Notes under the pieces: model-generated | Seen by the model: only the letters and a program-made list of their open reading frames with translations | What the model was told of the DNA's origin: nothing | The model's database searches: none | Program-made: the position numbers and the translations under genes | NCBI GenBank assembly: GCA_902768985.1 | Contig: CACXNA010000015.1 | Location: 1 to 64,000 of the forward strand | Direction: 5' to 3' | Source: an uncultured Bacteroidia bacterium | Lineage (GTDB): Bacteria > Bacteroidota > Bacteroidia > Bacteroidales > UBA932 | DNA: 64,000 bases | Shown here: in pieces, positions 15,466 to 55,550 of the stretch | Layout: every line of letters starts with the position of its first letter | Numbering within the stretch: position 1 is the stretch's first letter

Positions 15466-16227
15466 TTACAGATTTGAAGCGAGTCGCTGAAGGGTAGTCG
15501 GGTCGCCGGAGGCGAGGAGCTCGAGGGCGGGGGATTCCGGGTCAAGCCCGGAATGACTGTTAAGCAGACCGCGCTCAGTGAGAATGTGAACGAGCTGGCG
15601 GGCGACCGCGGGCGCGGGGTCGATGACGCGCACGCCGGGACCGGCGAGCCGCTCGATGACGGGCAGCAGGAAGGGGTAGTGCGTGCAGCCGAGCACAATG
15701 GTGTCGGCGCCGGCGTCGAGCAGCGGCTGCAGGCTCGCGCGGACGACGCGCTCGGCCTCCGGGCCGTCGAGCTCGCCGCGCTCGACGAGCTGCACGAAGC
15801 CCTCGCCGACGTGCTCCTCGATGCGCACGTTGTCCTGGAACTTCCCCTTGGTATTCAGATACTTGGACGCCTTGAGGGTGCCGGCCGTGGCGAGCACGCC
15901 GATCACGCCGCTGCGCGTGCCGAGGGCGGCCGGCTTCACGGCCGGTTCCATCCCGATGAAGGGGACGTCAAACTCCGCGCGCAGGGTCGCGATGGCGGCG
16001 CCGGTGGCCGTGTTGCAGGCCACGACGATCACGTCCGCGCCCCGGTCCAGCAGCAGGCGCGTGATGACGCGCGCACGCTCCTGGATGTACTCCGCGCTTT
16101 TCTCCCCGTAAGGGCAGTGGGCGTTGTCGGAGTAGTAGATATAACGTTCGGAAGGGAGGACCTTCCGTATTTCTCGCAATACTGAAAGTCCTCCCGAACC
16201 GGAATCGAATATGCCGATGACAGCCAC
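15466..16227 (-). CDS. murI: Glutamate racemase
   Basis: MurI makes D-glutamate for peptidoglycan. In 253 residues the two catalytic cysteines are C71 (VVACNTAT) and C181 (LGCTHYP), with the N-terminal FDSGSGG motif intact. The start is GTG, and the upstream DUF6515 stop and this start share one base (TAGTG), implying translational coupling. Residues 223-232 (NSHSGLDPES) are encoded by a palindromic repeat that is identical to one in ispG; it lies in the C-terminal tail, after the catalytic residues, so activity should survive. Confidence 0.95.
   Translation of the reverse strand: MAVIGIFDSGSGGLSVLREIRKVLPSERYIYYSDNAHCPYGEKSAEYIQERARVITRLLLDRGADVIVVACNTATGAAIATLRAEFDVPFIGMEPAVKPAALGTRSGVIGVLATAGTLKASKYLNTKGKFQDNVRIEEHVGEGFVQLVERGELDGPEAERVVRASLQPLLDAGADTIVLGCTHYPFLLPVIERLAGPGVRVIDPAPAVARQLVHILTERGLLNSHSGLDPESPALELLASGDPTTLQRLASNL
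15531..15561 (-). repeat. Coding palindromic element type B, copy in murI
   Basis: 31 bases identical to 54731-54761 in ispG. The stem is ATTCCGGG/CCCGGAAT around TCAAG, with the ATGAC ending. It is translated on the minus strand as NSHSGLDPES. Confidence 0.9.
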
Positions 16228-17678
16228 TACAGCGATTCGTACGGGTCGTATTTCTGTGCCAGGGTGCCGGTCAGCTGGCCGAGCACCTCGAAGTAGGGCG
16301 ATCCGTCGATGATGGTGAGCTTGTACACGGTGTCATCCACCTTGTAATACTCCTCACCGTCGAGGGTGATCGTTTCGTAGTCGTCAGGCAGCTCGTTGAC
16401 CAGGGCGCCCGCAGGCGGGACGATGGTCACGTACTTGCCGTCCTTGTCCTTGATGAAGAACACGCCGTCCTGGTAGAAGTACTCCACGCCGGCGTCGGCG
16501 TAGCTCTGCACCAGGCCGAGGCGGTCGGCCTCCTTGTAGGACTGGGCAGCGCGCTCCGTGTTGAGGGCGATGTCCGCGTTCTGCTTGGCGATCGTGGCGT
16601 TGTTGGCCGCGATGGTCGCATTCTGGCTGGCGATGGTCTGCGCGTTCTCGTTGATCGTACGGTACGTGTTGGCCACGTCGTAGTAGTAGGCGAAGTTGCA
16701 GGCCGTGTAGATGATATTGTCCAGGATGGCGTCGACGACGATGCCGAACGGAGGACGGCTCACGTAGTAGTAGCCACCATAGTAGCGGTAGTAGATGCCG
16801 TCAAGCAGGTAGTACGGGATCCCTGCGTACACCACGCGGGTGCGGCGGGCCGGCAGGTAGGAGACGCGGTAGCCGAAGTAGTGGCGGCCGCCGTCCCAGA
16901 AGCGGACGGCGCGTCCGTACGGCATCGGGTCGCGGTGGCGCGGCGGGACGCGCTCCATGTTGTGGCCGGGACCCGGGCGCATCTTGATGTGGTGCGGCTC
17001 GCGGCCGCCCTCGAAGTTGCGCGGGGTGCCGGGGCGCTCACGCACGGTGCGGGGGGCATCCGGCTTCACGCTCATGCCCGGCTGGGGCTGGTTGCGGTTG
17101 ACGCTGCCGCCCGGCGAATTGGGACGCTGGCGGTTCTCCGCCTGCGGCTCATTGCGGCGCGGCTCGTCGCGGCGCGGCTCCGGCTTGCGGACATTGCTGC
17201 CGCTGCGGGACGGCTGGTCGCCGCTGCGCGGGGCCTGGGCCCGCGGCTGCTCTTTCGGCTGCTGAGGCTGGGCCTTCGGCTGGGAAGGAGCGCTGGGCTG
17301 GCTGGAAGCCTTCGGCGGCTGCTGCGGCTGGGCCTTCGGCTGCGGTTGGGTCCGCTGCTGCGGGGCCGTACGCTGCGGGGCCGTACGCTGCGGCTGCGAC
17401 TGCGGGGCAGAGCGCTGCGGTTGTGCGGAGCTATGGGACTGGGAGCTGCGGTTCACGGAACCGAGGCCCTTGGTATTGCCGGACTGACCGGCGCTTCTGT
17501 TCTGGGAAGCAGGTGCGGACATCGAAGAGGAAGGACGGGTGCCGCCGTTGTTGCGGGCATTGCCGCCGCCCGATCCACCGCGGGAATTGCTGCCGCCCCT
17601 GGTCTGAGCGTCTACGGGGACCGCGATCATAGCCGCTGCGGCTACTGCGATCAGGGAGAGTGTGGTCAAGCGTTTCAT
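16227..17678 (-). CDS. Secreted low-complexity DUF6515-like protein
   Basis: A 483-residue exported protein of unknown function. Signal peptide (residues 1-24, VPVDAQ), a long disordered region rich in Q, P, S, R and N (about 25-230), then a tyrosine/glycine-rich segment (YYRYYGGYYYVSRPPFG) typical of DUF6515 proteins. A coiled stretch with ATIA-x3-N repeats (about 345-380) follows, and a beta-rich C-terminal domain with repeated EYYKVDDTVY-like strands. It starts 12 bases after namZ and overlaps murI by one base, placing it among wall-turnover genes; an envelope role is inferred. Confidence 0.75.
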   Translation of the reverse strand: MKRLTTLSLIAVAAAAMIAVPVDAQTRGGSNSRGGSGGGNARNNGGTRPSSSMSAPASQNRSAGQSGNTKGLGSVNRSSQSHSSAQPQRSAPQSQPQRTAPQRTAPQQRTQPQPKAQPQQPPKASSQPSAPSQPKAQPQQPKEQPRAQAPRSGDQPSRSGSNVRKPEPRRDEPRRNEPQAENRQRPNSPGGSVNRNQPQPGMSVKPDAPRTVRERPGTPRNFEGGREPHHIKMRPGPGHNMERVPPRHRDPMPYGRAVRFWDGGRHYFGYRVSYLPARRTRVVYAGIPYYLLDGIYYRYYGGYYYVSRPPFGIVVDAILDNIIYTACNFAYYYDVANTYRTINENAQTIASQNATIAANNATIAKQNADIALNTERAAQSYKEADRLGLVQSYADAGVEYFYQDGVFFIKDKDGKYVTIVPPAGALVNELPDDYETITLDGEEYYKVDDTVYKLTIIDGSPYFEVLGQLTGTLAQKYDPYESL

Positions 17679-17690
17679 AATTGTGTGATT

Positions 17691-18977
17691 TTAGTAAATG
17701 TAATACTTCTTGGACAGGGCTTTGAAAGCGGGGACGTCCGCGGACCAGAAGTCGGCGATGTCGGAGACTTTCATCGTCCGTCCAAACGTATTACTGACAA
17801 AATCAGTGCCGCAAACTTTATTGAACATGGAAAGCCTGTCTGAGGCCCCTGAAATGGGGTTTTTCTGGTAGAGTTCCCAGACGGCCTGCATCACGTAGAA
17901 CTGCGTGAGGGTGAGCGTCGCGGCTTCGTAGTCGGTGTAGTAGTACTGGACGCCGTGGATGAGTTTGCCCGACAGGCGCCCCGAAATCGGCTGGTAATGG
18001 ATGGTGCGCCAGGCCACGCCCGGGACGTGGTAGCTGTCCAGCTTCTCCTTTAACTGATCGGCGTCGACCCACTCCTCGGCGAAGGTCGCGAAGGGGAGGG
18101 TGTAGCCGATGCCGATGTTGAGGTAGTTGTACATCTCGCCGCAGAGGCCCGCGGAAGGGTAGCAGATGGCTGTCTCGGCGTAGGGGATGTTCGGGGAGGG
18201 GAGGATCCATGGGAGACCCGTGTCATTGAAGAGCATGTCGCGCGTCCAGCCCTCCATCGGGATGACGGTGAGCTTACACTTCAGCGGCGCGGCCTTGCCG
18301 TTCTGGCCGCGGTTCAGGCCCTCCTCGTTGATGAGGGTGGCGAGCTCGCCAACCGTCAGGCCGTAGACATAGGGGATCTTGTACTGGCTGACGAAGGAAT
18401 GGAAACCGTCGCGCACGAGCGGCCCCTCGACCTTGCGACCGCCCAGCGGGTTGGGGCGGTCGAGCACCATCACGGGGATGCCCATCTCCGCGCAGGTGCG
18501 CATCACCAGGCCCAGCGTGGAGATGAAGGTGTAGGAGCGGCTGCCCACGTCCTGAATGTCGTAGACCATGATGTCCACGCCCTGGAGCATCTCCTTCGTG
18601 GGCTGGCGGGTGCTGCCGAAGAGCGAGTGTACCGGCAGGCCGGTGTGCTCGTCCTTGCCGGATTCGACCTTGCCGCCGGCATAGACGTCGCCGCGCACGC
18701 CGTGCTCGGGGGCGTAGAGCGCCACGAGCTTCACGTTCGGCGCCTCGAAGAGGATGTCGATGGTGGAGTTGAGCTGGCTGTCAACGCCCGAAGGGTTGGT
18801 GACCAGGCCGACGCGCTTGCCTTCCAGGCCCGCGAAGCCGCGGTCCCGCAGGACCTCGATGCCCGGCTTGACCTTCGGAGCGGAGGATTCAGCGGGGGAG
18901 GCGGCGTTGGCGCAGGCGGCTAGGATGAGCAGCGCCGCCGCGCAAAGAAGGTGACGGTAATGGTGGCGAGACAACAT
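17691..18977 (-). CDS. namZ: Exo-beta-N-acetylmuramidase NamZ family (DUF1343), lipoprotein
   Basis: DUF1343 proteins include NamZ, which removes MurNAc from the non-reducing ends of peptidoglycan fragments (GH171). The 428-residue protein has a type II signal peptide with lipobox LAAC and the conserved blocks GLVTNPSGVD, YAPEHGVRG, VYDIQDVGSRSYTF, DRPNPLGG and PSPNIPYAETA. Start at 18977 overlaps the end of the permease gene by 58 bases in another frame, so the two are coupled. The neighbours (SpoIID-like, AmpG-like, MurI) support muropeptide scavenging. Confidence 0.88.
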   Translation of the reverse strand: MLSRHHYRHLLCAAALLILAACANAASPAESSAPKVKPGIEVLRDRGFAGLEGKRVGLVTNPSGVDSQLNSTIDILFEAPNVKLVALYAPEHGVRGDVYAGGKVESGKDEHTGLPVHSLFGSTRQPTKEMLQGVDIMVYDIQDVGSRSYTFISTLGLVMRTCAEMGIPVMVLDRPNPLGGRKVEGPLVRDGFHSFVSQYKIPYVYGLTVGELATLINEEGLNRGQNGKAAPLKCKLTVIPMEGWTRDMLFNDTGLPWILPSPNIPYAETAICYPSAGLCGEMYNYLNIGIGYTLPFATFAEEWVDADQLKEKLDSYHVPGVAWRTIHYQPISGRLSGKLIHGVQYYYTDYEAATLTLTQFYVMQAVWELYQKNPISGASDRLSMFNKVCGTDFVSNTFGRTMKVSDIADFWSADVPAFKALSKKYYIY

Positions 18978-20245
18978 ATCATGACAACGATAAAGAATCC
19001 GACATAGCCGAGGGCTTCCTGCATCCAGCCCGCGAACAGGCCGGGGATCATCATCGACAGGGCCATGAAGGCCGTGCAGATGGCGTAGTGCGAGGTCTTG
19101 AAGGAGCCTTCGGAGAACTGCATCATGTAGAGCATGTAGGCCGTGAAGCCGAAGCCGTAGCCGAACTGGTCGAGGGCGACGAGCGCGAAGATGCTCCAGA
19201 GCGCGGTGGGCTGCACGGCGGCGAGGATGAGGTACACGGCGCAGGGCAGGGCCAGGGCCATGGACATGGGCCACATGGACTTGCGCAGACCTTGTTTGGC
19301 AGCGTACAGGCCGCCCAGGATGCCGCCCACCGTCAGGGCGATGACGCCCACGGTGCCGTACACGAGGCCCGACTGGGCGGTGCTGAGCCCGAGGCCGCCG
19401 GCCTCGACGGGGTCGAGCAGGAAGGGCGTGAGCATCTTGACGGAGAAGGCCTCCGGCAGGCGGTACAGTAACATAAAGGTAATCGCGAGCCAGACGCCCG
19501 GCTTCTTGAAGAAGGTCACCCAGGCCTGTCCGAACTCCCGCAGTACGTCGGAGCCGGAGCGGCAGGGCCCTTCCGGAGCCGTTCTCCCGGGCAGGGTCGA
19601 ACAAGCGGAGCGCTGTTCGATAGCGGAGGAAGGACCGCTGCCGTCCGGCGACTCCACCTTCGGAAGGAATCGGGTGTGCCACAGGGTGATGAGCGCGAAG
19701 AGCACGGCCGAGGCGAACAGGGTGATGCTCCAGGCGCGCGGGATGGCGCCCAGGCGCTCCTCCAGCACGCCCGCCAGTACCACGATCACGCCCTGCCCGA
19801 AGACCGACGCGATGCGGTAGAAGGTGCTGCGGATGCCCACGAAGGTGGCCTGCTGCTTCTGCTCCAGGGCGATCATATAGTAGCCGTCCGCGGCGATGTC
19901 GTGCGTGGCGGAGGCGAAGGCGATGATGTAGAAGATGACCAGCGACCAGCCGAAGACGTCCGGGCTGACGCTCAGCGCGAGGCCGGCGAAGCCGACGGTG
20001 CACAGCAGCTGCATCAGCACGATCCACCAGCGCTTGGTGCGGATCACGTCCACGAAGGGGCTCCACAGGGGCTTGATGACCCAGGGGAGGTAGAGCAGGG
20101 AGGTGTACATGGCCAGGTCACCGTTCGGCATGCCCAGGCGCTTGAACATCGTCACGGAGATGTTGTTGACGATGAAGTAGGGGATGCCCTCGGCGAAGTA
20201 GAGCGTGGGGATCCACCACCAGGGGGAGCGTAGCTTATTCGACAT
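18920..20245 (-). CDS. AmpG-like MFS permease
   Basis: A 12-segment major facilitator of 441 residues resembling AmpG-type muropeptide importers (PWWWIPTLYFAEGIPYF start, FASATHDIAADG in segment 4-5, LDQFGYGFGFTAYMLYMM). The cargo is probably an anhydro-muropeptide or MurNAc-containing sugar, inferred from NamZ immediately downstream. The central loop between segments 6 and 7 carries about 35 extra residues (about 197-232) encoded by a palindromic element that also occurs in ligA. Start MSNKLR overlaps the upstream stop by 11 bases. Confidence 0.85.
   Translation of the reverse strand: MSNKLRSPWWWIPTLYFAEGIPYFIVNNISVTMFKRLGMPNGDLAMYTSLLYLPWVIKPLWSPFVDVIRTKRWWIVLMQLLCTVGFAGLALSVSPDVFGWSLVIFYIIAFASATHDIAADGYYMIALEQKQQATFVGIRSTFYRIASVFGQGVIVVLAGVLEERLGAIPRAWSITLFASAVLFALITLWHTRFLPKVESPDGSGPSSAIEQRSACSTLPGRTAPEGPCRSGSDVLREFGQAWVTFFKKPGVWLAITFMLLYRLPEAFSVKMLTPFLLDPVEAGGLGLSTAQSGLVYGTVGVIALTVGGILGGLYAAKQGLRKSMWPMSMALALPCAVYLILAAVQPTALWSIFALVALDQFGYGFGFTAYMLYMMQFSEGSFKTSHYAICTAFMALSMMIPGLFAGWMQEALGYVGFFIVVMICCLATITVTFFARRRCSS
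19551..19655 (-). repeat. Coding palindromic element type D, copy in the permease gene
   Basis: About 105 bases with complementary ends (GGCAGGGCCCTTCCG against GGAAGGACCGCTGCC). The sequence is clearly related, in opposite orientation relative to coding, to 61301-61402 in ligA, sharing blocks such as CCTTCCTCCGCTATCG and GGAAGGGCCCTGCCG. It is open in frame in both hosts. Confidence 0.85.
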
Positions 20246-22388
20246 CGGTTCCGGGATAATAGTGTTGGAGTATCTTCCTGTAATCAAAGCCGCGGGCGGC
20301 CATCACGGCGGCGCCGATCTGGCAGAGGCCGACGCCGTGGCCCCAGCCGCGGCCGCGCAGGATCCACGCGCCGGCGGGGTCGCGCTCCACCTCGAAGGCG
20401 GAGCTCTTGAGGTGGGAGCTGCTCAGCGCGCGGCGGATCTTCAGTTCCTTGCCGACGACCTCCGTGCGCTGGCTGCCCACGATGCGCAGGTACTTGATGC
20501 GCCCGGACGGGCCGCGCTCGATGGGCTCCAGCGCCTGAATCTCGCCGAAGTCGATGCCGGTGCGCTCGCGCACCAGGGCGGCGAGCTCGTCGGCGCCGTA
20601 GCGGACGGTCCAGTCGTGGAAGTCCTTGGTCGTCTGGTCGTAATCGTTGAGGACCTGCGAGAGGATCTCATCGTTCTCGCAGTCGCACCAGGGGTCGTCG
20701 ACGCACTGCAGGTAGGGGTAGTCGACGTCCTCCCAACAAGTGCTGAAGAGCTCGGTCTTGCCGCCGCAGCACTTCGAATAACGGGTGTCGCAGAGCTGCC
20801 CCTGATAGCGCAGCACCTGGCCCCAGGTCTCGTCGATGACGGTGCGGACGTTGTCGCCCACGGCCATCGTAAGTCCTTGATATCTTTGACAATGGTCATC
20901 CGCGCAGACATCGAAATCCCTGTGCGGGATTTCGACCTTCGGGATCTTCACCCCCTGCGCCCCCTCAAGGGGGATGGCCGGATAATCGCTGTCGCGATCC
21001 GGCCTGCTCGCGGCGAGTCTGTCGCGCATGCGGGCAAGGAGCCAGGAACGGGAGATGACGGCGTGGGCCTTCAGGAGGTTGACGGAGGCGCTGGACTTCA
21101 TCTCGGAGGAAATGACGCTGAGCAGGTAGTCCTCCATGCCCACGAGGTTGACGGCGCGGACCTTGTCGCCCTCGACGATGAATTTCAGGCCGCCGGCGAA
21201 CTTGAGCGTGCGCTTCTGCTGCCAGTGGAAGTCGATGCCGATGACCACGTCGTGCAGGATGAAGGACGGCTCGGCGAAGCGCGTCGAGCGCGTGATGGAG
21301 TCGAAAAAGAGCTCGTCGTAGAGCGCGCCGTTGTAGGCGATGCGGCCGTCGCACCAGCGCACGCGCTGGGGGCCGGCGCCGTCGGAGATGATCTCGAAGC
21401 AGATCTCCTCGGCGGCGAGGATGCCCACGGCCACGCGGGGCTGGGTGCGTGTGAGGCGCCATTCGATCATTTCCTGCTCGTGGGCAGGGATTGTCACCTC
21501 GTCGAGGATGGCCTCCAGCAGCGCGGGCGTCGCTTTCTCGAAGTCCTCGCGGAAGGGGGTCACGAACACGCCCGCCATGTCGGCGGCGCCGGGGCTGACG
21601 GTCAGGTGCTCCTCGCCCACGGCGTCGAAGTGGTGCGAGCGCTTGGCGGAGCGGAGCACCACGAAGCAGCGCCACTCCGCGCCCTTGACGTAGGCGTAGA
21701 GGTTGAATTTGGGTTCCGTCTCGTCCGGGCGGCGGTCGCAGCAGTCCAGCAGGCGGTAGAAGAGCTTGGTCAGGGATTTCGAGGTCGTCGCCTTGAGCGC
21801 GTATACGCCCCGGCAGTAGCCGGGAAATCTGTACAGCGTCGCGTCCTTGACGCTCGCGAGCGCCTCGCCGGGCGCGTCGAGGAAGGCGTCCACCGCCTCC
21901 TCGAGCGGCATCCTGTGGCGCGGCGCCGCCTGGAAGTGCAGGTGGTCGGGCGCGGAGGCGCCGCTGGCCGGGCCGTTGTAGAACGCCGTGAAATCGGGAT
22001 ACTTGCGGGCGAAGTCCAGGATGTCCGGCATGTGGTGCCAGATGGCCTGGGGGAGGTGCTCGTCGCGGACGATCACCAGGTGGTCCTTGAAGATGGGGAA
22101 GGGGTTGATCTGGACGTTGTACGTCCGCCCCTTGCGGCCTTCGAATTTAATATGGTGCTGCTCCGGCGGGCGGTTTTTCTCACAGAGGAAGCAGGGCCGG
22201 GCGGCGATGGCCTCGGGGGAGGTGTCCGCCGTCGAGGAGCCGACCCGCTCGGGGTTCCACTGGATGCGGCAGGGGAGGCCGAAGACCGGGAACTCCCGGG
22301 TCTTGACGGCCTTGAGCGCCCGGAAATTGGTCGCGGCGAGCGGCCATATGGAGAGCTGGTCTTTGATGAATTTACGCAGTTCTTGCAT
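20235..22388 (-). CDS. DUF4922 (HIT-like) and SpoIID/LytB fusion protein
   Basis: A 717-residue two-part protein. The N-terminal half (about 1-300) is DUF4922, with a FLCEKNRP zinc-like segment and a DHLHFQ motif typical of HIT/galactose-1-phosphate uridylyltransferase-like nucleotidyl enzymes. The C-terminal half (about 330-717) is SpoIID/LytB, with EDYLLSVISSEM, LKAHAVISRSW, CGGKTE and GWGHGVGLCQIGA; SpoIID cleaves peptide-free glycan strands. No signal peptide is visible, which is odd for a wall lytic enzyme. A palindromic insertion adds about residues 458-492. Its start overlaps the Nudix stop (TAATG). Confidence 0.85.
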   Translation of the reverse strand: MQELRKFIKDQLSIWPLAATNFRALKAVKTREFPVFGLPCRIQWNPERVGSSTADTSPEAIAARPCFLCEKNRPPEQHHIKFEGRKGRTYNVQINPFPIFKDHLVIVRDEHLPQAIWHHMPDILDFARKYPDFTAFYNGPASGASAPDHLHFQAAPRHRMPLEEAVDAFLDAPGEALASVKDATLYRFPGYCRGVYALKATTSKSLTKLFYRLLDCCDRRPDETEPKFNLYAYVKGAEWRCFVVLRSAKRSHHFDAVGEEHLTVSPGAADMAGVFVTPFREDFEKATPALLEAILDEVTIPAHEQEMIEWRLTRTQPRVAVGILAAEEICFEIISDGAGPQRVRWCDGRIAYNGALYDELFFDSITRSTRFAEPSFILHDVVIGIDFHWQQKRTLKFAGGLKFIVEGDKVRAVNLVGMEDYLLSVISSEMKSSASVNLLKAHAVISRSWLLARMRDRLAASRPDRDSDYPAIPLEGAQGVKIPKVEIPHRDFDVCADDHCQRYQGLTMAVGDNVRTVIDETWGQVLRYQGQLCDTRYSKCCGGKTELFSTCWEDVDYPYLQCVDDPWCDCENDEILSQVLNDYDQTTKDFHDWTVRYGADELAALVRERTGIDFGEIQALEPIERGPSGRIKYLRIVGSQRTEVVGKELKIRRALSSSHLKSSAFEVERDPAGAWILRGRGWGHGVGLCQIGAAVMAARGFDYRKILQHYYPGTDVE
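20911..21015 (-). repeat. Coding palindromic element type E/F, copy in DUF4922-SpoIID
   Basis: About 105 bases made of consecutive hairpins: TCGAAATCCC/GGGATTTCGA, a CCCCCTTGAGGGGG block followed by CGCAGGGGGT, and GGCCGGAT/ATCCGGCC. The middle module recurs in the methyltransferase gene near 49770-49800 in the same reading frame (GAQGV). Confidence 0.85.
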
Positions 22389-22961: not shown

Positions 22962-23792
22962 TCAGTAATTGATGATCCGCAGTTCGTCCGGGCTATAAAG
23001 CAGGGTGTCGATGAAGTCCGGGGCCACGCGGGCGAGGACCATGAAGGCGACGAGCGCGACGATCGCAACGCTGATGAGGATAATCAAAAGGATGATCCAG
23101 ACCGGGAGACCTTTCCGCTCGGGCTCCTTCCAGTCGTCGTGGATCCAGGCCGCCGGGTAGGTGGCCGGCCGGGACTTGGGTTCCTCTTCCTCGCTTTCCG
23201 GCTCTGACTCTTCCGTCTGCTCGGAAGCCTCCTTGTCGTCATTCGCCGGCTCGACCGGCGAATCTCCTTCCTCCGTCCCGACCGTCTCGGGGGCCTCCTC
23301 TTCGACCGGCTCAACGGTCTCCGCCCCTGGCAGTGGCACGTCGATGACGACCGGCTCCTGCTCTTCGGGCTCCAGGCTCTTCAGGGAGACGGGCTCCAGG
23401 CCCACGCCGGCGGGGTAGATGTCCAGCCCCTCGTCGGGGACGAAGAACAGCGTGTTCTCCCGCGTGGCGCGCAGGCGCCCCAGGCCCGGGAGGACGATGG
23501 TCTTGCGCTCCTCGAGCACGCTTTTCAGCTCGGCGAGGTATTGGGTGATATAGGCGGCGGATGCTTCGCGCGTGATCTGGTTGGCTTCGGCGTAGAACTT
23601 GATCAACAGGCTGTCCTCCAGGCGGCTGGGATAGAAGGAAAGCCGCCGGTAGGGGGGATGGATGGTGTAGCCCTTGTCGGAGAAGGTCGCAGGGACCATC
23701 TCGGCCACAAAGGTGCCGACACCGGGAAGGCCTACCTGATCGTGTTCGAGGATCAGTTCGCCCACCATTCTGGACAGTAAATCGATATCCAT
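22962..23792 (-). CDS. HU-CCDC81-like domain protein with C-terminal membrane anchor
   Basis: The N-terminal 140 residues (MDIDLLSRMVGELILEHD..., LPGVGTF, LPGLGRLRA) match the duplicated HU-like domain of HU-CCDC81 proteins in Bacteroidota, which are often joined to a SPOR domain. Here an acidic E/P-rich linker (about 140-210) leads to a single transmembrane segment (about 226-252, VWIILLIILISVAIVALV) and a short tail with no SPOR domain. The orientation implies a cytoplasmic DNA-binding-like head at the membrane. It is the first gene of the minus-strand run and has its own -7 box. Confidence 0.75.
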   Translation of the reverse strand: MDIDLLSRMVGELILEHDQVGLPGVGTFVAEMVPATFSDKGYTIHPPYRRLSFYPSRLEDSLLIKFYAEANQITREASAAYITQYLAELKSVLEERKTIVLPGLGRLRATRENTLFFVPDEGLDIYPAGVGLEPVSLKSLEPEEQEPVVIDVPLPGAETVEPVEEEAPETVGTEEGDSPVEPANDDKEASEQTEESEPESEEEEPKSRPATYPAAWIHDDWKEPERKGLPVWIILLIILISVAIVALVAFMVLARVAPDFIDTLLYSPDELRIINY

Positions 23793-27896: not shown

Positions 27897-29111
27897 TCCG
27901 TCAATGAGCCACTTGTACGTGGTGATCTCGCAGAGGCCCATCGGGCCGCGGGCGCCGAGCTTCTGCGTGCTGATGCCGATCTCCGCGCCGAGGCCGAACT
28001 GGGCGCCGTCGGTGAAGGCCGTGGGGGCGTTCACGTAGACGCAGGCGGCGTCGACTTCCGCCTGGAAGCGCGCGGCCGCCGCGGCGTCGGCCGTGACGAT
28101 GCTCTCGCTGTGGCCGGAGCCGTAGCGGGCGATGTGTTCGAGCGCCTCGTCGAGCGAATCGACGGTGCGGATGGCCATCTTGTAGTCCATGTACTCCGTG
28201 CCGAAGGACTCCGGCGTGGCGGGCTCCAGCAGGGGATAGCGGCCCGCGAGGGCCGCGAAGGCCGCTTCGTCGGCGAAGATCTGCACGTCTTTCTGCGCCA
28301 GCGGCGCTACCAGGGCGGGCAGGTCCGGCAGGCGGTCATGATGCACGATCAGGCAGTCGAGCGCGTTGCACACCGACACGCGGCGCGTCTTGGCGTTCAG
28401 CACGATGCGCCGGCCGATCTCCAGGTCGCCGGCGACGTCGAAATAGGTGTTTACCACGCCGGCGCCCGTCTCGATGCAGGGCACCTTGGCGTTGTCGCGG
28501 ACAAAATCGATCAGGCGGCGGCCGCCGCGCGGGATCACCAGATCCACGTAGCCGACGGCGCCGAGCAGCTCCCCGACCGCCTCGTGGGTGGGCGGGAGCA
28601 GCGTCACGGCCGCCTCGGGCAGGCCGCGCTCCGCGAGCACGCGGCGGATCAGCGCCACGGCCGCGTGGTTGGACGCGCCGGCGTCGCTGCCGCCCTTGAG
28701 CATGCAGGCGTTGCCGCTCTTGAAGCAGAGCGAGAAGACGTCGAAGGTCACGTTCGGACGCGCCTCGTAGATCACGCCGATCACGCCGAACGGCACGCTG
28801 ACCTTGCGCAGGCGCAGCCCGTTGGGCAGCGTGCGGTCCTCGAGCACACGGCCCAGGGGCGAGGGGAGCGCCGCCACGTGGCGCATGTCGGAGGCGATGC
28901 CCTCCAGGCGCTCCGGCGTCAGCTTGAGCCGGTCGTAGAGCGGATTCTGCGGATCCATCCGCGAGAGGTCCTCCGCGTTGGCGGAGAGGAGTTCCGCGCT
29001 GTGCGCGAGAATGGCGTCGGCCACGGCTTCCAGCGCCGCGGCGCGCTCCGCATCCGGGATCAGCGCCACCTGCGCCGCACCCCGCTTGGCTGCTTCGAAC
29101 AGATTCTTCAC
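27876..29111 (-). CDS. proA: Gamma-glutamyl phosphate reductase
   Basis: ProA reduces gamma-glutamyl phosphate to the semialdehyde in proline synthesis. The 411-residue protein has the catalytic cysteine C248 (SVCNALDC), [17 protein letters not shown], and [15 protein letters not shown]. The best start is a GTG at 29111 ([11 protein letters not shown]), because the frame upstream has no ATG and the length then matches the family. That GTG lies inside a palindromic repeat (29101-29128), so an inserted repeat seems to have supplied or replaced the N-terminus. proB is 35 bases upstream. Confidence 0.93.
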
Positions 29112-29128
29112 TTCGTTCAGAATGACAG
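29101..29128 (-). repeat. Palindromic element type C at the proB-proA junction
   Basis: An AGATTCTTC...GTTCAGAATGACAG element: imperfect palindrome with the ATGACnG ending shared with types A (11245-11269) and B. On the coding strand it reads GTCATTCTGAACGAAGTGAA, whose GTG is the likely proA start. From memory, close relatives are frequent in Bacteroidota genomes. Confidence 0.75.
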
Positions 29129-30086: not shown

Positions 30087-30089
30087 CTC

Positions 30090-30240
30090 CTTCGCGTCGC
30101 TGGGGATTCCTTTCGAGCGCGTGGACACGGACCCGGGCCTCACCATGGAAGATTGCCAGCACATCGATGCGAAGATCCGCACGAAAGACTTGCTTGAAAA
30201 GTATTTGCCCGCCTCAGGGCACGAACTGAAAGTTCTATAG
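30090..30240 (+). pseudogene. Internally deleted remnant of a prolyl-tRNA deacylase-like gene
   Basis: The translation SLGIPFERVDTDPGLTMEDC...DAKI is nearly identical to the intact gene at 36609-37142, then jumps at GAAGATC (30171-30177) to RTKDLLEKYLPASGHELKVL and a stop. In the intact gene the two parts are separated by 306 bases bounded by GAAGATC at 36767-36773 and 37073-37079, so the loss is an in-frame deletion between 7-bp direct repeats. The first 26 or so codons are also missing, replaced by the hairpin array. No start codon remains in place; the product cannot be functional. Confidence 0.9.
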
Positions 30241-36609: not shown

Positions 36610-37142
36610 TGTTTAAAGTAAGCGACATCATCACCACGCCGCCGCGGGAGTTCAGCTCGGAGCTTCAGCGGCAGGTCTATGCGACCTTCGCGTCGCTGGG
36701 GATTCCTTTCGAGCGCGTGGATACGGATCCAGGCCTCACGATGGAAGACTGCCAGCACATCGATGCGAAGATCGGCGTGCGGATCGTAAAGACCATCTTT
36801 CTGTGCAACCGGCAGCAGACGGAGTTCTATCTGTATGTGACGACGGACGACAAGCCATTCGTGACGCGGGACTTCTGCGGAGCGCTTGGGATTCCTCGGG
36901 TGTCCTTCGCCTCAGCGGAGAAGCTCTGGGAGCTGACGGGCGTGCAGGTGGGCGCCACGACCATCCTGAGCGCCATCCTGCCGCAGTCGGCCGGCGTGCA
37001 CCTGGTGATGGACCGCAGCGTGGCGGAAGGGGAGTGGTTCGCCTGCACGGACGGCACGGCCACCTGCTTCGTGAAGATCCGCACGGCGGACCTGCTCGAC
37101 AAGTATTTGCCCGCCTCCGGGCACGAAGTGAGGGTTATCTGA
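36609..37142 (+). CDS. Prolyl-tRNA deacylase-like protein (YbaK/PrdX family)
   Basis: A 177-residue member of the YbaK/ProX-PrdX editing family, which hydrolyses mischarged tRNA such as Ala-tRNA(Pro). Recognisable parts are VYATFASLGIPFERVD, GVRIVKTIFLCNRQQTEFYLYVTTDDK with the conserved K of VKTIFL, and GVQVGATTILSAI. The start overlaps the upstream stop by one base. A deleted second copy lies at 30090-30240 in the same orientation, so the two copies bracket a 6.4-kb block. Confidence 0.9.
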   Translation: MFKVSDIITTPPREFSSELQRQVYATFASLGIPFERVDTDPGLTMEDCQHIDAKIGVRIVKTIFLCNRQQTEFYLYVTTDDKPFVTRDFCGALGIPRVSFASAEKLWELTGVQVGATTILSAILPQSAGVHLVMDRSVAEGEWFACTDGTATCFVKIRTADLLDKYLPASGHEVRVI

Positions 37143-49406: not shown

Positions 49407-50775
49407 GGTTTTTCTGAAGCACGGGCGCGACGAGTCGCTGCGCCGTTTCCATCCGTGGGTGTTCAGCGGAGCGGTCGCCCAGGTGCAGGGTTCGCCCGCC
49501 GAGGGCGACATCGTCGGCGTGTACAGCGCCGAGGGGCAGTTCCTGGCCTCCGGCCACTGGCAGGTCGGCTCCATCGCCGTCCGCATCCTTTCTTTCGACG
49601 CCGATCCCACCGCTCCCGACTTCTGGACCAATTCCATCGCCCGCGCCCTGCAGGCGCGTATCGCTGTCGGACTGTATGCTGACGGAAGCGGGCAACTGCT
49701 TCCCGAAACGTCCGGCTGCGCCGGACCCCTCCCATCTGACGATGGGCCCCTCCCTCTTACGATGCCGCCCGACAAGGACAAATCCCCCTGGAAGGGGGCG
49801 CAGGGGGTTGAAGGACAAGCCAGCTTGCTGGCACGGTTTCCGGAAGCAGTTCCCGCTTCCGATCAGCGAACGAATTGCTTCCGACTGATACATGGTGAGG
49901 GTGATGGGTTGCCGGGGTTGATTATTGACTGGTATGACGGGGTGTGCGTGATGCAGGCTCACTCGGTGGGCATGTTCCGCGCGAAGGCGCAGATCTGCGA
50001 GGCGCTGAAGGCCGTCTTCGGGGAGCGCCTGAAGGCCGTGTATGACAAGAGTTCCGGGACGGCGCCGTTCAAGGCGGGCCTGGAGCTGGTCGACGGCTAT
50101 CTGTACCGCGCGCCGGGCTTCGAGGCCTCCGAGACGGTGGTGCTCGAGAACGGCCGCAAGTTCCTCGTGAACTGGGAGGAGGGCCAGAAAACCGGCTTCT
50201 TCCTGGACCAGCGGGACAACCGCGCGCTGGTCGGCAAGTATGCCGCCGGGCGCCGCGTGCTCAATCTTTTCTGCTATACCGGCGGCTTCAGCATCTACGC
50301 GCTGACGTCCGGCGCCGTGCAGGTCGACTCCGTCGACTCTTCCGCCCGCGCCATGGACCTCGTCGCGCGCAACATTCAGTTGAATATTGCTGACGGTGCC
50401 GCGGAGGTACATAACTACTGCGAGGACGCTATCGATTTCCTTCATAAGACGCCGGAGGGGAAGTACGACCTGATGATCGTTGACCCGCCGGCATTCGCCA
50501 AGCACCGCGGGGCGCTGAAGAACGCGCTGCGCGCTTATCAGCGGCTGAATGCCGCCGCCATCGCCAAGGTGGCACCGGGCGGCCTGGTGTTTACCTTCAG
50601 CTGCTCGCAGGTCGTGGACAAGATCACCTTCGCCAACACGGTCTTCTCTGCGGCCGCCCAGACCGGGCGCAGCGTGCGCATCCTGGACCGCCTCTGCCAG
50701 GGCGCCGACCATCCGGTCAGCATCTATCACCCGGAAGGGGAGTACCTGAAGGGCCTGCTGCTGTACGTGGAATAA
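49399..50775 (+). CDS. Class I rRNA methyltransferase (RlmI/RlmK-type) with coding palindromic insertion
   Basis: An SAM-dependent 23S rRNA cytosine-C5 methyltransferase-like protein, 458 residues. The N-terminal PUA-like domain (RFHPWVFSGAVAQV) and the EEI middle region are followed by the catalytic domain (KTGFFLDQRDNR, VLNLFCYTGGFSIYAL, YDLMIVDPPAFAKH, TFSCSQVVD). Between RIAVGL and TNCFRLIHGEGDG about 59 residues (96-154) are encoded by a 177-bp palindromic element that keeps the frame; orthologues join these two parts directly. The enzyme may still be active because the insert is in a linker. Confidence 0.9.
   Translation: MVKVFLKHGRDESLRRFHPWVFSGAVAQVQGSPAEGDIVGVYSAEGQFLASGHWQVGSIAVRILSFDADPTAPDFWTNSIARALQARIAVGLYADGSGQLLPETSGCAGPLPSDDGPLPLTMPPDKDKSPWKGAQGVEGQASLLARFPEAVPASDQRTNCFRLIHGEGDGLPGLIIDWYDGVCVMQAHSVGMFRAKAQICEALKAVFGERLKAVYDKSSGTAPFKAGLELVDGYLYRAPGFEASETVVLENGRKFLVNWEEGQKTGFFLDQRDNRALVGKYAAGRRVLNLFCYTGGFSIYALTSGAVQVDSVDSSARAMDLVARNIQLNIADGAAEVHNYCEDAIDFLHKTPEGKYDLMIVDPPAFAKHRGALKNALRAYQRLNAAAIAKVAPGGLVFTFSCSQVVDKITFANTVFSAAAQTGRSVRILDRLCQGADHPVSIYHPEGEYLKGLLLYVE
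49684..49860 (+). repeat. Coding palindromic element type E/F, copy in the methyltransferase gene
   Basis: 177 bp (59 codons). Outer arms of about 25 bases (49684-49709 with 49836-49860; cores GAAGCGGGCAACTGCTTCC and GGAAGCAGTTCCCGCTTC) enclose small hairpins GTCCGG/CCGGAC, CCCATC/GATGGG, CCCCCTGGAAGGGGG and GCCAG/CTGGC. The block from TCCCCCT to CGCAGGGGGT matches the DUF4922-SpoIID copy. Confidence 0.88.
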
Positions 50776-50790
50776 CCATTTTCTACCTAT

Positions 50791-53700
50791 ATGCGTAAAA
50801 TATTGCTTGTGGCAGGACTGCTCGCCCTGGTGGCGTGCGGTCGGCAGCATGGTCCGTCCGCGGACGGCGGAACCCGTGGTATCGGCGTCTATCCCGGCAA
50901 TCCGGCGGAATACACGGGGCCGGAGTTCGTCCCTGCGGGGAATGACTACCGCAACCTCGCTTTGTTGCGCGTGGCGCGGGCCTCTTCCAGCATCGATTAT
51001 AATCTGACCGCGCAGCTGGCCACGGACGGCATTCAGGCCTCCGGGGAGCCGCTGCTCCTGAACGTGTCGGCCGGCGGGCGGCCGCTTTCCAAACGCGACC
51101 GCGAGAAGCTTTTCGACAGCAACGGCTGGACCACGGTCAGCGTCCCGGGCGGGGCGGACGCCTCACTGACGCTGCAGCTGCAGGGCGGCGCGATCGCCGC
51201 CGACCGCCTGCTGGTCTATGGGCTCGCCAGACCCCTGGGCGGGGACTTTTCCGCTGCGCCGCAGCCTTGCACCGTCATCGTGGAGCGTTCGTCCGACGGC
51301 GAACGCTGGGAGCCGGTGGCGAAGCGGGAGGAGAAGCAGTTCGCGCTCTGGCGCGTTGATTACCGCGAAGGGGTCAATGCGACCAATTTCTGCTGGGAAT
51401 TCCCCTTACCCGCCGAGCCTTTTGCCGCCCTGCGCCTCCGCCTGGACGCGCCGGGCGTGGAGAGCTGGTCGCTGCAGCAGCTGGATTTCTCGCTACGCGG
51501 GCAGGCGGTCAACATCCTTCCCTCGGCGCGGTTCTACAGCGCCTGGATGAGCGAAGGTGCTGACGATGAATGGCTTTGTGTCGACCTGGGCGCGGATGCC
51601 CGTTTCGACGAAGTGCGCTTCCAGTGGCTGGAACGGCCGGAAGGGGGCGTGGTGGAGTCGTCCTCGGACGGGGTGCGCTGGAAGCGACTGAAGGAGCTTC
51701 CGGCTGCGGGTCCGAAGGACGAGCGGCTGGCTGTGCGCGGCCGCGGGCGCTATGTGCGCCTGGCCGGCCTGCAGGCTTCGCCCGAAGGGCACATCGCCCT
51801 CGGGGAGTTGGAGGTCTGGGGCCGCGGCGGCGTCCGGCCGCAGGCGCAGGCGCAGCCCCTGCGGCGGACGGATGGGAGCGGGCGCATGGATCTGCGCTGC
51901 GGCGCATGGCGCCTGCAGCGCGCCGACGAGGTGCCCGAGACGGGGGAGGTTCTCTCCGCTGTGGGCTTCGACGCGCAGCGCTGGCTGCCGGCGACCGTCC
52001 CCGGGACGGTGCTGACTTCCTATTTCAATGCGGGTGCCGTCCCCGACCAGCGCTATGACGATGACCAGCTGCAGATCTCCGAGTCTTTCTTCCTCAGCGA
52101 TTTCTGGTATCGCGACGAGTTCGACCTGCCGGAGGACTGGGCCGGCAAGGAGGTGGTCCTGCATTTCGACGGGATCAACTGGAAGGCCGATGTCTTCGTG
52201 AACGGCAGCCGGGCGGGCCGCATCGAAGGGGCCTTCTCCCGGGCTGCGCTGGACGTGACGAAGCTCCTGAAGCCCGGGCACAATGCACTGGCTGTCAGGA
52301 TACTGAAGAATGATCATCCCGGAATCGTGAAGGAGCAGGATCGCATCAGTGCGGACCTGAACGGCGGCGTGCTCGGCGCGGACAATCCCACGATGCACGC
52401 CACCATCGGCTGGGACTGGATCCCCACGGTGCGCGGCCGCAACATCGGCATCTGGAACGACGTGTGGCTCTCCGCGCACCAGGGCGGCGTCTCGATTGAC
52501 GACGTGTTCGTGGACACCGACCTGTCGCTGCCTTCCACCGCCTATGCAGACCTCAAGCCCGTGGTTACGCTCACGAACCATGGCGCGCAGGAGCGTCTGG
52601 CGGAGATTTCCCTCTTCTACGGCGAGCTGGAGATGAAGGGATCGGCGGTGCTGGCGGCGGGGGAGACCCGCGACGTGGCGCTGCCCGTCGCGCGGCTGGA
52701 GCAGCCGCAGCTGTGGTGGCCGGCCGGCTACGGCGAGCCGCACCTGTACCAGGTGGATGCTTCCGTGTGGGTGGACGGGGTGCCGTCCGACTCGAAGCGC
52801 CTGTACTCCGGCGTCCGGGAGATGTCCTATACGATGGACGGCGGGGTGCTGGACTTCTACGTGAACGGACGCCGCCTGATCGGCAACGGCGGCAACTGGG
52901 GCTATCCCGAGGTGAACCTGAATTACCGCGCCCGCGAATATGATATCGCCGTGGCCTACCACGCCGACATGCATTTCACGATGATACGCAACTGGGTGGG
53001 CCAGACCGGCGACGAGGAGTTCTGGGAGGCTTGCGACCGCCATGGCGTGATGGTGTGGCAGGATTTCTGGCTGGCGAACCCGGCCGACGGCCCCGTGCCG
53101 GACGACGAGGCGATGTTCCTCGCGAACGCCGAGGACTACCTGCGCAAGATCCGCCATCATCCCTGCCTGGCGCTCTACTGCGGGCGCAACGAGGGCAATC
53201 CGCCGGCCGCGCTGGACGAAGGTCTGCGCGCCCTGGTGAACCGCCTGCATCCGGGGATGCAGTATATCCCGCATTCCGCGACCGGGCCCGTGAGCGGCAA
53301 CGGCCCTTACCGGGCCCTGCCGGTGGAGGAATACTTCACGCTGGAGCGCGGACGTGACCGCTTCCACAGCGAGCGGGGTATGCCCAACGTGCCGACCGTC
53401 GAGAGCCTGGAGCGGATGCTCGCACCGGCGCACCGCTGGCCGCAGGATGATGTCTGGGGTATGCACGATTACGCCTTGGAGAGCGCCCAGAGCGCAGCCA
53501 CCTTCAATGCGATGGTGGAGAAGGCCTTCGGTCAGCCGGAGAGCCTGGAGCAGTTCGCCCAGTGGGCGCAGTGGATCAATTACGACGGCTACCGGGCCAT
53601 GTACGAATCACGCAGCGCGCAGCGCAAGGGCCTGCTGATCTGGATGAGCCACAGCTGCTGGCCCTCGATGGTCTGGCAGACCTATGATTATTATTTCGCG

Positions 53701-54312
53701 CCCACGGCGGCCTACTTCGGCGCCAAGAAGGGCAGCGCTCCTGTCCGCATTCAGTGGAACCCCGCCGCCGGCCGGGTGGAGGTGGTCAACAACAACGCCG
53801 GCGACCTGTCGGGTCTCACGGCCCTCGCCGTCGTGGCGGCCCCCGACGGGACGCTCCTGTCGGAGCAGCAGACGGAGCTGGACGCCGCGGAGGATTCGAC
53901 CGTTGCGCTGCCGTTCGAAATCCCGGGGCAGGACCTCTTCCTGCTGCGCCTGCGCCTGCTGCAGGGCGACGCGGAGCTGGCTGACAATTTCTACGTCCTC
54001 CATCCGGATGACCCGGGTAACCTGCAGGCCCTGAAGGAGTTGCCTGCGGCGAAGGTGGACCTGCGCACCGAATGGATCCGCGAGGGCGACCAGTGGATTG
54101 GTACCGCTACGCTGGAGAATAAGTCCGGCACGCCGGCGCTGATGCTTCGGCTCAACCTGGTCGGCGCCCGCAGCGGCGGGCAGATCCTGCCCGTCTTCTA
54201 CGAGGACAACTGGATTTCCCTGCTGCCGGGCGAGCGCAAGTGCATCCGCGTGCGCTGTGCTGTCGCAGACACGCGTGGGGAGCAGCCGGAGCTGCAGCTC
54301 GTACGGAATTAG
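50791..54312 (+). CDS. Glycoside hydrolase family 2 lipoprotein (exo-glucosaminidase/mannosidase-like)
   Basis: A large 1173-residue GH2 enzyme. A lipobox (ALVACG) near residue 17 anchors it, and an N-terminal extension (about 60-350) contains two discoidin-like (F5/8 C) regions with WLCVDLGADARFDEVRFQW. The GH2 sugar-binding domain (FWYRDEFDLPEDWAGKEVVLHFDGINWKADVFVNG) and TIM barrel follow. The acid/base is likely E801 (GRNEGNPP) and the nucleophile E861 (HSERGMPN). The WQDFWLANP and NEGNPP features resemble exo-beta-glucosaminidases and beta-mannosidases more than beta-galactosidases. Its stop overlaps the converging ispG stop. Confidence 0.88.
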   Translation: MRKILLVAGLLALVACGRQHGPSADGGTRGIGVYPGNPAEYTGPEFVPAGNDYRNLALLRVARASSSIDYNLTAQLATDGIQASGEPLLLNVSAGGRPLSKRDREKLFDSNGWTTVSVPGGADASLTLQLQGGAIAADRLLVYGLARPLGGDFSAAPQPCTVIVERSSDGERWEPVAKREEKQFALWRVDYREGVNATNFCWEFPLPAEPFAALRLRLDAPGVESWSLQQLDFSLRGQAVNILPSARFYSAWMSEGADDEWLCVDLGADARFDEVRFQWLERPEGGVVESSSDGVRWKRLKELPAAGPKDERLAVRGRGRYVRLAGLQASPEGHIALGELEVWGRGGVRPQAQAQPLRRTDGSGRMDLRCGAWRLQRADEVPETGEVLSAVGFDAQRWLPATVPGTVLTSYFNAGAVPDQRYDDDQLQISESFFLSDFWYRDEFDLPEDWAGKEVVLHFDGINWKADVFVNGSRAGRIEGAFSRAALDVTKLLKPGHNALAVRILKNDHPGIVKEQDRISADLNGGVLGADNPTMHATIGWDWIPTVRGRNIGIWNDVWLSAHQGGVSIDDVFVDTDLSLPSTAYADLKPVVTLTNHGAQERLAEISLFYGELEMKGSAVLAAGETRDVALPVARLEQPQLWWPAGYGEPHLYQVDASVWVDGVPSDSKRLYSGVREMSYTMDGGVLDFYVNGRRLIGNGGNWGYPEVNLNYRAREYDIAVAYHADMHFTMIRNWVGQTGDEEFWEACDRHGVMVWQDFWLANPADGPVPDDEAMFLANAEDYLRKIRHHPCLALYCGRNEGNPPAALDEGLRALVNRLHPGMQYIPHSATGPVSGNGPYRALPVEEYFTLERGRDRFHSERGMPNVPTVESLERMLAPAHRWPQDDVWGMHDYALESAQSAATFNAMVEKAFGQPESLEQFAQWAQWINYDGYRAMYESRSAQRKGLLIWMSHSCWPSMVWQTYDYYFAPTAAYFGAKKGSAPVRIQWNPAAGRVEVVNNNAGDLSGLTALAVVAAPDGTLLSEQQTELDAAEDSTVALPFEIPGQDLFLLRLRLLQGDAELADNFYVLHPDDPGNLQALKELPAAKVDLRTEWIREGDQWIGTATLENKSGTPALMLRLNLVGARSGGQILPVFYEDNWISLLPGERKCIRVRCAVADTRGEQPELQLVRN

Positions 54313-55550
54313 GCGTTGTCCGCCTCGATGAGGCGGAGGAGCTCGTCGATGGCTTCGCTGTCGGGGATGTGGCGCAGGACGGGCTCGCCGCGGTGGTAGA
54401 TCGTGACCTTGCCGCCGCCTTCACCCACATAGCCCCAGTCGGCGTCGGCCATCTCGCCGGGGCCGTTGACGATGCAGCCCATCACGGCGATGACCATGCC
54501 CTTGAGGTGGGCGGTGCGGCGCTGGACCTCCTCGAAGGTCTCCTGGAGGTTGTACATCGTGCGGCCGCAGCCCGGGCAGGCGATGTATTCGGGTTTGTAG
54601 AAGCGGCGCCGCGCGGCCTGCATGATCTCGTCGACGAGGTACGCGCTCAGGCCCGCCGTCGCCGGGATCTCGTCGATCTCGCGCTTCAGCAGCTTCGGCC
54701 CCCAGGTGGTGGCAGCCTTCAGCATGGCAAGGGATTCCGGGTCAAGCCCGGAATGACTGTTTGCAAGGTATTTTGCTACCGGTAATTCATTGACGGGCGG
54801 CTCGGTGAGGGAGACGCGGATGGTGTCGCCGATGCCTTCCTGCAGCAGCGAGGCGATGCCGACGCAGGACTTGATGCGGCCGCTGTCGCCGCCGCCGGCT
54901 TCCGTGACGCCCAGGTGCATCGGGAACACGACGCCGCGCTCCTGCATCCGCTGCGCGAGCTCGCGATACGCCTCGACCATCACGACGGTATTGCTCGCCT
55001 TCAGCGAGACGACGACGTTCAGGAAGTCCGCCTCGATGCACATCTCCAGCCATTCCATCGCCGCCATCGCCATCGCGTGCGGCGTGTTGCCGTAGCGGTC
55101 GGTGATATAGCGGCCGAGCGAGCCGTGGTTCAGGCCCACGCGCACGGCGGTGCCGTGCTCCTTGCAGACCTGCAGGAAGCGGGCGAACTGGGCGCGCGCC
55201 TGCTCGTGGTCGGGGTGGAAGTTGCCGGGGTTGATGCGGACCTTCTCCACGACGGGGGCCACGTCGATGGCCGTCTCCGACGAGAAATGGATGTCCGCCA
55301 CCAGCGGGACGTTGCAGCCCGCGGCGCGCAGCCGGCGCTTGATCTCCGCGACGTGCGGGACGTCCTGGCGGCCCGGCACCGTGATCCGGACCAGCTGCGC
55401 GCCCGCCGCGGCGAGCTCCAGGGCCTGGGCCACGGTGGCGTCCACGTCGGAGGTGTGGGTGTTGCACATCGTCTGGACGACGATGGGGTGGCCGGCGCCG
55501 ATGACGAGTGCGTCACCGATCCGTACCGGAAGCGTCTGTATGCGAGCCAT
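54309..55550 (-). CDS. ispG: 4-hydroxy-3-methylbut-2-enyl diphosphate synthase (flavodoxin/ferredoxin)
   Basis: IspG makes HMBPP in the MEP isoprenoid pathway. The 413-residue protein has a TIM-barrel domain (HPIVVQTMCNTHTSDV, LVADIHFS, VRINPGN, VGLNHGSLG) and an iron-sulfur domain with C325, C328 (CPGCGRT) and C359 (GCIVNGPGE). It lacks the roughly 250-residue extra domain that I recall for most Bacteroidota, plant and chlamydial enzymes; only a short linker lies between the domains. About residues 264-273 in this linker (NSHSGLDPES) come from a palindromic element identical to that in murI. Confidence 0.95.
   Translation of the reverse strand: MARIQTLPVRIGDALVIGAGHPIVVQTMCNTHTSDVDATVAQALELAAAGAQLVRITVPGRQDVPHVAEIKRRLRAAGCNVPLVADIHFSSETAIDVAPVVEKVRINPGNFHPDHEQARAQFARFLQVCKEHGTAVRVGLNHGSLGRYITDRYGNTPHAMAMAAMEWLEMCIEADFLNVVVSLKASNTVVMVEAYRELAQRMQERGVVFPMHLGVTEAGGGDSGRIKSCVGIASLLQEGIGDTIRVSLTEPPVNELPVAKYLANSHSGLDPESLAMLKAATTWGPKLLKREIDEIPATAGLSAYLVDEIMQAARRRFYKPEYIACPGCGRTMYNLQETFEEVQRRTAHLKGMVIAVMGCIVNGPGEMADADWGYVGEGGGKVTIYHRGEPVLRHIPDSEAIDELLRLIEADNA
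54731..54761 (-). repeat. Coding palindromic element type B, copy in ispG
   Basis: Identical over 31 bases to 15531-15561 in murI and translated in the same frame (NSHSGLDPES). The stem is ATTCCGGG/CCCGGAAT with the ATGAC ending. Confidence 0.9.

Follow-up and report, generated by a model that had tools for sequence, protein, structure and literature searches.

In an uncultured Bacteroidia bacterium (Bacteroidales; UBA932; assembly GCA_902768985.1), one short palindromic repeat lies in frame within two unrelated genes, murI and ispG, and at addresses of this kind that are inherited between related genomes the hairpin is probably exchanged for another while the site is preserved, which is how we best read the compared sequences. 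Both genes are found in the stretch of DNA analysed here, called the window throughout (64,000 nucleotides; contig CACXNA010000015.1, positions 1 to 64,000). The repeat unit is GTC-ATTCCGGG-CTTGA-CCCGGAAT, with CTC usually next; the palindrome proper measures 21 nt (8-bp stem and 5-nt loop), to which a GAC/GTC tag is added.

The repeat is almost certainly a non-coding, non-autonomous member of the CGTC-tagged class of repetitive extragenic palindromes (REPs), as judged by comparing its stem, loop and tag with the available part of the description by Di Nocera et al. 2013 (PMC3733652). This class is already known, and the turnover of hairpin families at shared addresses is the new part. Taken as a whole, the data are best explained by a CGTC-class repeat that has spread to 78 places in the genome and whose hairpins are exchanged at existing addresses by template switching, a reading to which we assign a probability of roughly 0.6.

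Different hairpins at shared sites

The murI gene (glutamate racemase; 15466..16227, minus strand; TIGR00067, 5.1e-64) contains the CGTC-type core ATTCCGGGTCAAGCCCGGAATGAC at 15534..15557 (plus strand), whose minus-strand reading is SHSGLDPES. Three hairpin families occupy this site across five related genomes, designated, like the loci, by handles (G and L numbers). The ATTCCGGG hairpin is present in the own genome, in G105 (RGIG9685) and in G106 (RUG14425), with one arm base changed in G106 and a tag-side half-element added in G105; being common to separate assemblies, this copy is not recent. In G086 (Red_deer_4_mag_112) the site reads GTC-ATTCGCCGG-CTTGA-CCGGCGAAT, and the adjoining bases CCCCCGCCCTCGA are unchanged. 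In G085 (RUG13447) a CCTGAGC-type hairpin lies within about 6 nt.

What happens at the other sites? In a first comparison, 16 of the 26 intragenic sites could be aligned in relatives, L035 at 2001 and L058 only with relatives other than G008 and G015, which are close relatives by IspG (89-90% identity). Of the 14 sites aligned with one of these two, 12 are without the residues and two (L043, and L048 at 2915) are occupied in G008 by a hairpin whose stem is different. The search of relatives returned no homologue of the site for seven (L025, L026, L037, two in L052, L054, L065), and L039 (two sites) and L041 were left out of the alignment. Both flanks are homologous for the own copies in L007 (G011, G003), L043 (G008), L025 (G019), L058 (G003), L048 (G008) and L044 (G003, G005), and G019 and G075 are also comparable; the stems differ at each of these sites. 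Over nine pairwise comparisons, the 24 stem differences make up 12 base pairs, every one of which is still paired (positions 6/16 and 3/19), and the same hairpin is shared by the pairs G011-G003, G028-G019 and G005-G078. Against G011, the flanks of the TolC site are 88-97% identical; in the stem a single compensated pair differs, and the palindrome next to it shows no change.

A second comparison relied on closer relatives, namely G085, G086 and G087 (Tb.RUG.407). The EamA site has the own hairpin in G086 and one of the ATGCCCGA type in G085; the PrmC site has ATTCGCCGG in G086 and none in G085; and the TP_methylase site has a CCTGAGC type in G085. At the FtsX/MacB site, the own hairpin is found in G087, ATGCCCGG in both G086 and G008, and none in G085. 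For this last genome, the TolC site carries ATTCCCGG and the hairpin at GSCFA is unchanged.

The third comparison was made pairwise among 478 tagged hairpins in named or handled loci (L361-L388 left out). A site was taken as shared when both flanks were homologous, both offsets were ≤10 nt and the orientation was the same, and two chance coding types were removed. The resulting set, 33 pairs at 21 sites, is non-random, with loci chosen for holding an element or a site orthologue, and the share of empty sites is unreadable from it. Six of the 21 sites are identical, one has a point change, five differ by one or two compensated stem pairs, one differs in the loop only, and eight are occupied by another stem family.

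Orientation deserves a separate comment. At 10 nt, 35 pairs have the same orientation (chance types included) and three are reversed; the latter belong to two sites and all have identical hairpins, so that different hairpins are never reversed at this distance. Inherited sites keep their orientation anyway, and this non-reversal of different hairpins is the informative part. The flank offsets, measured to the best flank match and not to the exact junction, are smaller towards the tail (median 3 nt) than towards the tag (median 15 nt) for 61 non-identical pairs, which are not independent of each other.

The tag side is also where partial copies accumulate. Solo half-elements, searched within 60 nt as loop G, 3' arm and tag with ≤2 mismatches in CCGGAATGAC, flank 16/78 copies on the tag side and 2/78 on the tail side, the background being ~4% of windows; 12 of 19 are exact half-element units.

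Copies in the genome and stem types in related genomes

The original prediction started from two identical 31-base stretches that share one reading frame in murI and ispG, and both points hold: 15531-15561 and 54731-54761 agree at all 31 bases, flank bases beyond palindrome and tag included, and the frame positions coincide. The family formed by the two copies stretches to 36 nt at 94% identity. In the window, the 21-nt palindrome has two matches with ≤3 mismatches, and none is expected (100 shuffles). Folded as single-stranded DNA, the element forms an 8-bp stem with a 5-nt loop at -8.6 kcal/mol (z -4.1). A scan of the window with Rfam found two tRNAs and no family at the element.

The prediction took identical DNA in two unrelated genes as a sign of mobility or gene conversion, and the DNA is indeed a dispersed repeat. 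Searching the whole genome (2,348,660 bases, 2.35 Mb, in 28 contigs) for the 24-base core with ≤3 mismatches gave 78 copies, and the reversed control gave 0. Sixty-one are exact, six have one mismatch, nine have two and two have three; only two pairs lie <250 bp apart among the 78 listed copies. The 67 copies with ≤1 mismatch were aligned, giving a flank consensus of (G)AG on one side (G at -1 in 67/67, A at -2 in 52/67, G at -3 in 50/67) and TAT on the other (T 55/67, A 53/67, T 45/67). The GTC tag is present in 67/67, preceded by A in 55, C in 11 and G in 1, and the non-tag end bears a tail, mostly CTC.

Beside the two core copies, the window contains three further hairpins with the same tag and different stems. 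One, ATGCCCGA-TCAGG-TCGGGCAT-GAC, is at 11250..11273 (plus strand), directly past a gene called at 9775-11244; another, ATTCGCCGG-TCGAG-CCGGCGAAT-GAC, is at 23238..23263 (minus strand), within an open reading frame (ORF) called at 22962-23792 (minus); the third, an imperfect hairpin of the ATTCTTC...TTCAGAAT-GAC type with 6/8 arm positions paired, is at 29103..29126 (plus strand).

The degenerate pattern ATKCCSGGTCAAGCCSGGMATGAC was run on 61 genomes of the genus, the own one included, and found matches in 20. The own genome has 62, of which 61 are ATTCCGGG and one is ATTCCCGG. Among the matches listed, G075 has ATTCCGGG in 11/11, G003 has mostly ATTCCCGG and G019 is mixed; in a given genome one or two stem types prevail. 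The arms are complementary in nearly all matches listed, though the pattern permits otherwise, the exceptions being one in G019 and one in G085.

Outside Bacteroidales, the 27-mer occurs in draft genomes labelled Alphaproteobacteria, Fibrobacter, Treponema, Gastranaerophilales, Patescibacteria and others, in at least 108 stretches; copy numbers were taken in 20 of these non-Bacteroidales genomes. Ten exact 24-mer copies are also present on a contig from a viral collection, IMGVR_UViG_3300003667_000196 (L422, L428), which may be bacterial DNA.

Other repeats were observed in the window. Tandem 88-bp repeats, two and a part, each with an inner GTATTTATCGCAAC inverted repeat, lie at 63562-63775. 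The 92-nt stretches at 30089-30180 and 36685-36776 are 93% identical, and a second similar pair is found near them (30171-30234 and 37073-37136).

Class and known relatives

According to the available part of Di Nocera et al. 2013 (PMC3733652), CGTC REPs have a stem of 8-9 bp starting with AT, a loop of 4-5 nt, an unpaired tag (CGTC, or TGTC/CCTC) at one end and a likewise unpaired tail of ~3 nt, mostly CCA, at the other; they are known in Bacteroidetes, with intragenic copies, copies shortly past stop codons and no transposase. The 8-bp ATTCCGGG/CCCGGAAT stem and the CTTGA loop agree with this, and these two lengths, 8 and 5, would place the repeat in family 2 of that paper; an associated transposase gene is likewise missing here. 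The tag speaks against the assignment, in that 55/67 copies have AGTC and 11/67 CGTC; the CGTC tag is carried by other families of the genome, such as the ATTCGCCGG type. Further differences are the CTC tail in place of CCA and the mostly single copies in place of head-head dimers, whose predominance is a tendency of the class and not its definition (PMC3733652, as far as available). Tag-side half-elements and hairpin-family turnover are absent from the part of the 2013 description at hand, with one exception: in recB of two Xanthomonas species, different REPs are reported at roughly one site.

The same paper, in the part available, includes Rickettsia RPE-4 and RPE-6 and Neisseria dRS3 in the CGTC superfamily, so that the analogy with Rickettsia palindromic elements (RPEs) drawn in the original prediction was right at the level of class. 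As in Rickettsia, copies lie in frame within functional protein genes, judging from the gene sequences. The phylum and the stems differ, RPE-1 is longer, and the kinship is the one given by the 2013 classification. The dRS3 repeat, a CGTC-1 member in that classification, shares the 8-bp stem and differs in having hundreds of clustered, mostly intergenic copies. GTAG REPs and REPINs with RAYT (TnpAREP) are alike as short tagged hairpins in many dispersed copies; their tag is GTAG and they are tied to a RAYT gene, and no such tie exists here. A RAYT-driven REPIN of GTAG type is ruled out, since neither a GTAG tag nor a flanking RAYT is present.

The open-licence PMC literature yielded no paper with the exact hairpin letters and none describing an exchange of hairpins where the site stays fixed, the latter absence being unproven by such a search. 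As early as 1988, Higgins et al. reportedly asked in a title whether REPs evolve by gene conversion.

Copies inside genes

In ispG (54309..55550, minus strand; TIGR00612, 9.4e-126) the second exact core copy, at 54734..54757 (plus strand), falls in the linker ahead of the C-terminal iron-sulphur part. SHSGLDPES begins past residue 223 in MurI and past residue 264 in IspG, in one frame for both. Are these two genes special? The prediction dealt with these two alone, and they are no exception: 26/78 copies are wholly within ORFs. Genes were called with a caller trained on the window and with Pfam, which also set the strands of L039 and L041.

A Pfam or NCBIfam match was obtained for the host ORF of 25/26 intragenic copies, L065 being without. 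The hosts include GSCFA, AIR synthase type, TP_methylase, outer membrane efflux protein, EamA, DsbD, dTDP-glucose/GDP-mannose dehydratase type, PrmC type, MacB type, methionine synthase (two copies), lipoate ligase, RNase P protein, DNA alkylation repair and indole-glycerol phosphate synthase. Five more genes terminate within the element (L009, L015, L033 at 5119, L045, L053). A TruB-type gene (L045:2596-3372) stops at a TGA in the element, and its C-terminal domain match covers 41/66 positions. In all, 31/78 copies are in genes or at their ends, as against a coding share of 92% in the window, and copies are therefore depleted in genes; many of the intergenic ones sit just past stop codons.

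Four of the six frames of the element are free of stops. The 26 intragenic copies use them unequally: SHSGLDPES 17, VIPGLTRN 2, IPGQARND 4 and FRVKPGM 3 (p 6.4e-5 against equal use; 17 vs 2, p 7e-4, for the antisense orientation alone), counts that are not fully independent because some copies share a gene (L039, L048, L052). The genic copies that persist occupy linkers able to tolerate them and are read in frames without stops, for the most part the hydrophilic frame. Two further points of the prediction, tolerant host places and an open, soluble reading, are supported, the first by alignments with relatives, in which the sites are variable linkers or loops, and the second by the open frames of the intragenic copies and the excess of SHSGLDPES (17/26). 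A conserved protein motif is ruled out: in 29 IspG and 29 MurI loci of relatives there are no such residues, nor the same ten residues with diverged codons.

The claim of a ten-residue insertion stands in part. A net gain of sequence is seen at MurI, TP_methylase and other sites when compared with relatives. The IspG linker is one codon shorter than in G008 (90% identical) and about equally long in relatives without the element, so that sequence was replaced there, not added. The IspG element is in none of the relatives seen, unlike the MurI site, where relatives have the same or another hairpin.

The IspG linker has a history of its own. It is longer in G085, G086, G105 and G106. In G085 and G086 the insert is an in-frame repeat of ~108 bp with inverted ends (L459:636-743 and L460:675-782), lying in opposite orientations in the two genomes; it recurs in the GSCFA gene of G085 (L467:581-674; ~94-108 bp over the three), and the long linkers of G105 and G106 were judged from protein sequence to be of the same kind. 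It is a second kind of in-frame dispersed repeat. In this genus IspG is short, ~413 aa; relatives of the same order have open frames of 470-650 aa, and their long insert sits at the element's place.

How might the hairpins be exchanged?

The original prediction left the choice between mobility and gene conversion. Simple mobility fails to explain a change of family at fixed sites, for which conversion or in-place exchange is the better fit. As to the mechanism, we tentatively favour template switching at stalled hairpins via their shared ends. Replication or repair would stall at the hairpin, and the nascent end would switch to another copy, the shared 5-base ends acting as microhomology. The switched strand would copy the donor hairpin and then return, and incomplete returns may leave the partial half-elements on the tag side. 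The address, its orientation and its tail-side boundary would be inherited, and the occupant would give way to another copy of the same or of a different stem family, the common part being only the ends (GTCAT ... AT and the tail). Somewhat short of even odds is the fuller proposal of an exchange system, in which addresses are fixed and inherited with their orientation, in-frame sites of essential genes included, the hairpin cassette is swapped between families that share only short ends, and each genome drifts to its own dominant hairpin.

Several points weigh against the explanation as a whole. The eight other-family sites fall in about six loci (TolC and the L008 region have two each, as adjacent pairs), and one TolC comparison (L142) is with another TolC homologue in G011, which may be a paralogue. 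Looser limits raise the number of reversed pairs, with 69 same and 11 reversed at 30 nt and 87 and 51 at 60 nt; back-to-back neighbours, the two TolC palindromes among them, swell the reversed count at 60 nt. G085 keeps ATTCCCGG at TolC, though most of its listed copies are ATTCCGGG; homogenisation is therefore incomplete. Simple slippage does not account for every half-element on the tag side, and neither an enzyme nor an intermediate was observed. Every genome in the detailed comparisons is a draft assembly, and there the correction of read errors could in principle have blurred rare variants. Lastly, the unrelated ~108-bp repeat occupies the IspG linker of four relatives, and permissive linkers are certainly hit independently.

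The main rival is a trans-acting enzyme. A single-strand nuclease or transposase, for example of the Y1/HUH type, might read tag and hairpin and replace or insert hairpins, as TnpAREP acts on GTAG REPs in vitro (PMC8266576, in the part available). We consider this unlikely, if the strongest of the alternatives. That the ends are shared while stem and loop vary freely looks like a recognition signature, and Y1_Tnp matches occur in 46/61 genus genomes (42 over the cut-off), which hold 201/204 copies of the degenerate pattern. Copies are present in 18/46 genomes with Y1_Tnp vs 2/15 without (Fisher p 0.11, Mann-Whitney p 0.046), a weak association that may reflect genome completeness. The surroundings of the Y1 genes argue the other way: only three CGTC hairpins lie in 95,257 bases around 31 of them (the 30 best loci and the own one), and the own genome's single Y1 gene is a weak match (PF01797, 20 bits, cut-off 23) flanked by GGGGAAGG palindromes instead. 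A transposase flanked by CGTC REPs was likewise not found in Di Nocera et al. 2013 (PMC3733652), as far as its available part goes. Transposases with terminal repeats are described in that same part, and the palindromes flanking the own Y1 gene are alike. This divergent gene (L031:1396-2316, 306 aa) lies between GGGGAAGG...CCTTCCCC palindromes, which are present close to further loci as well, for example L033 and L061.

Could there be no exchange at all? Independent insertions may repeatedly strike the same permissive linkers and post-stop positions. The sites are indeed tolerant regions, unrelated elements entered the IspG linker in different species and in opposite orientations in G085 and G086, and shared spots with an occupant in opposite orientation exist in G075 (L055) and in L294. 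Less easily accommodated are the exact positions and single orientation at 21 sites, the different hairpins never reversed within 10 nt and the conserved spacer between the two TolC palindromes; the empty orthologues show no obvious target motif. Repeated insertion is on balance improbable, more so than the enzyme.

Far less probable still is in-place compensatory mutation only, with hairpins drifting under selection for pairing. It would suit the 5/21 sites that differ by just one or two compensated stem pairs. At eight sites, however, the whole stem or its length differs, one or two stem types dominate genomes, and unpaired intermediates are rare among the matches listed; as the sole cause, stepwise change is disfavoured by cross-family sites such as MurI. 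An ordinary terminator or a conserved protein motif, which the many intergenic copies directly past stop codons might suggest in the former case, can practically be dismissed for an element that is read in four frames and both orientations, is missing as residues from the IspG and MurI loci of relatives and matches no Rfam family.

Outlook

The way in which CGTC REPs spread, with no accompanying transposase, has been an open question since 2013, and replacement in place, if true, makes it testable. The consequences would extend to the proteins. If hairpins are replaced in this manner, peptide segments in essential enzymes (SHSGLDPES, VIPGLTRN, IPGQARND, FRVKPGM and others) would be rewritable by a non-coding repeat, and such rewritable segments would bear on protein annotation and on estimates of selection in gut Bacteroidales.

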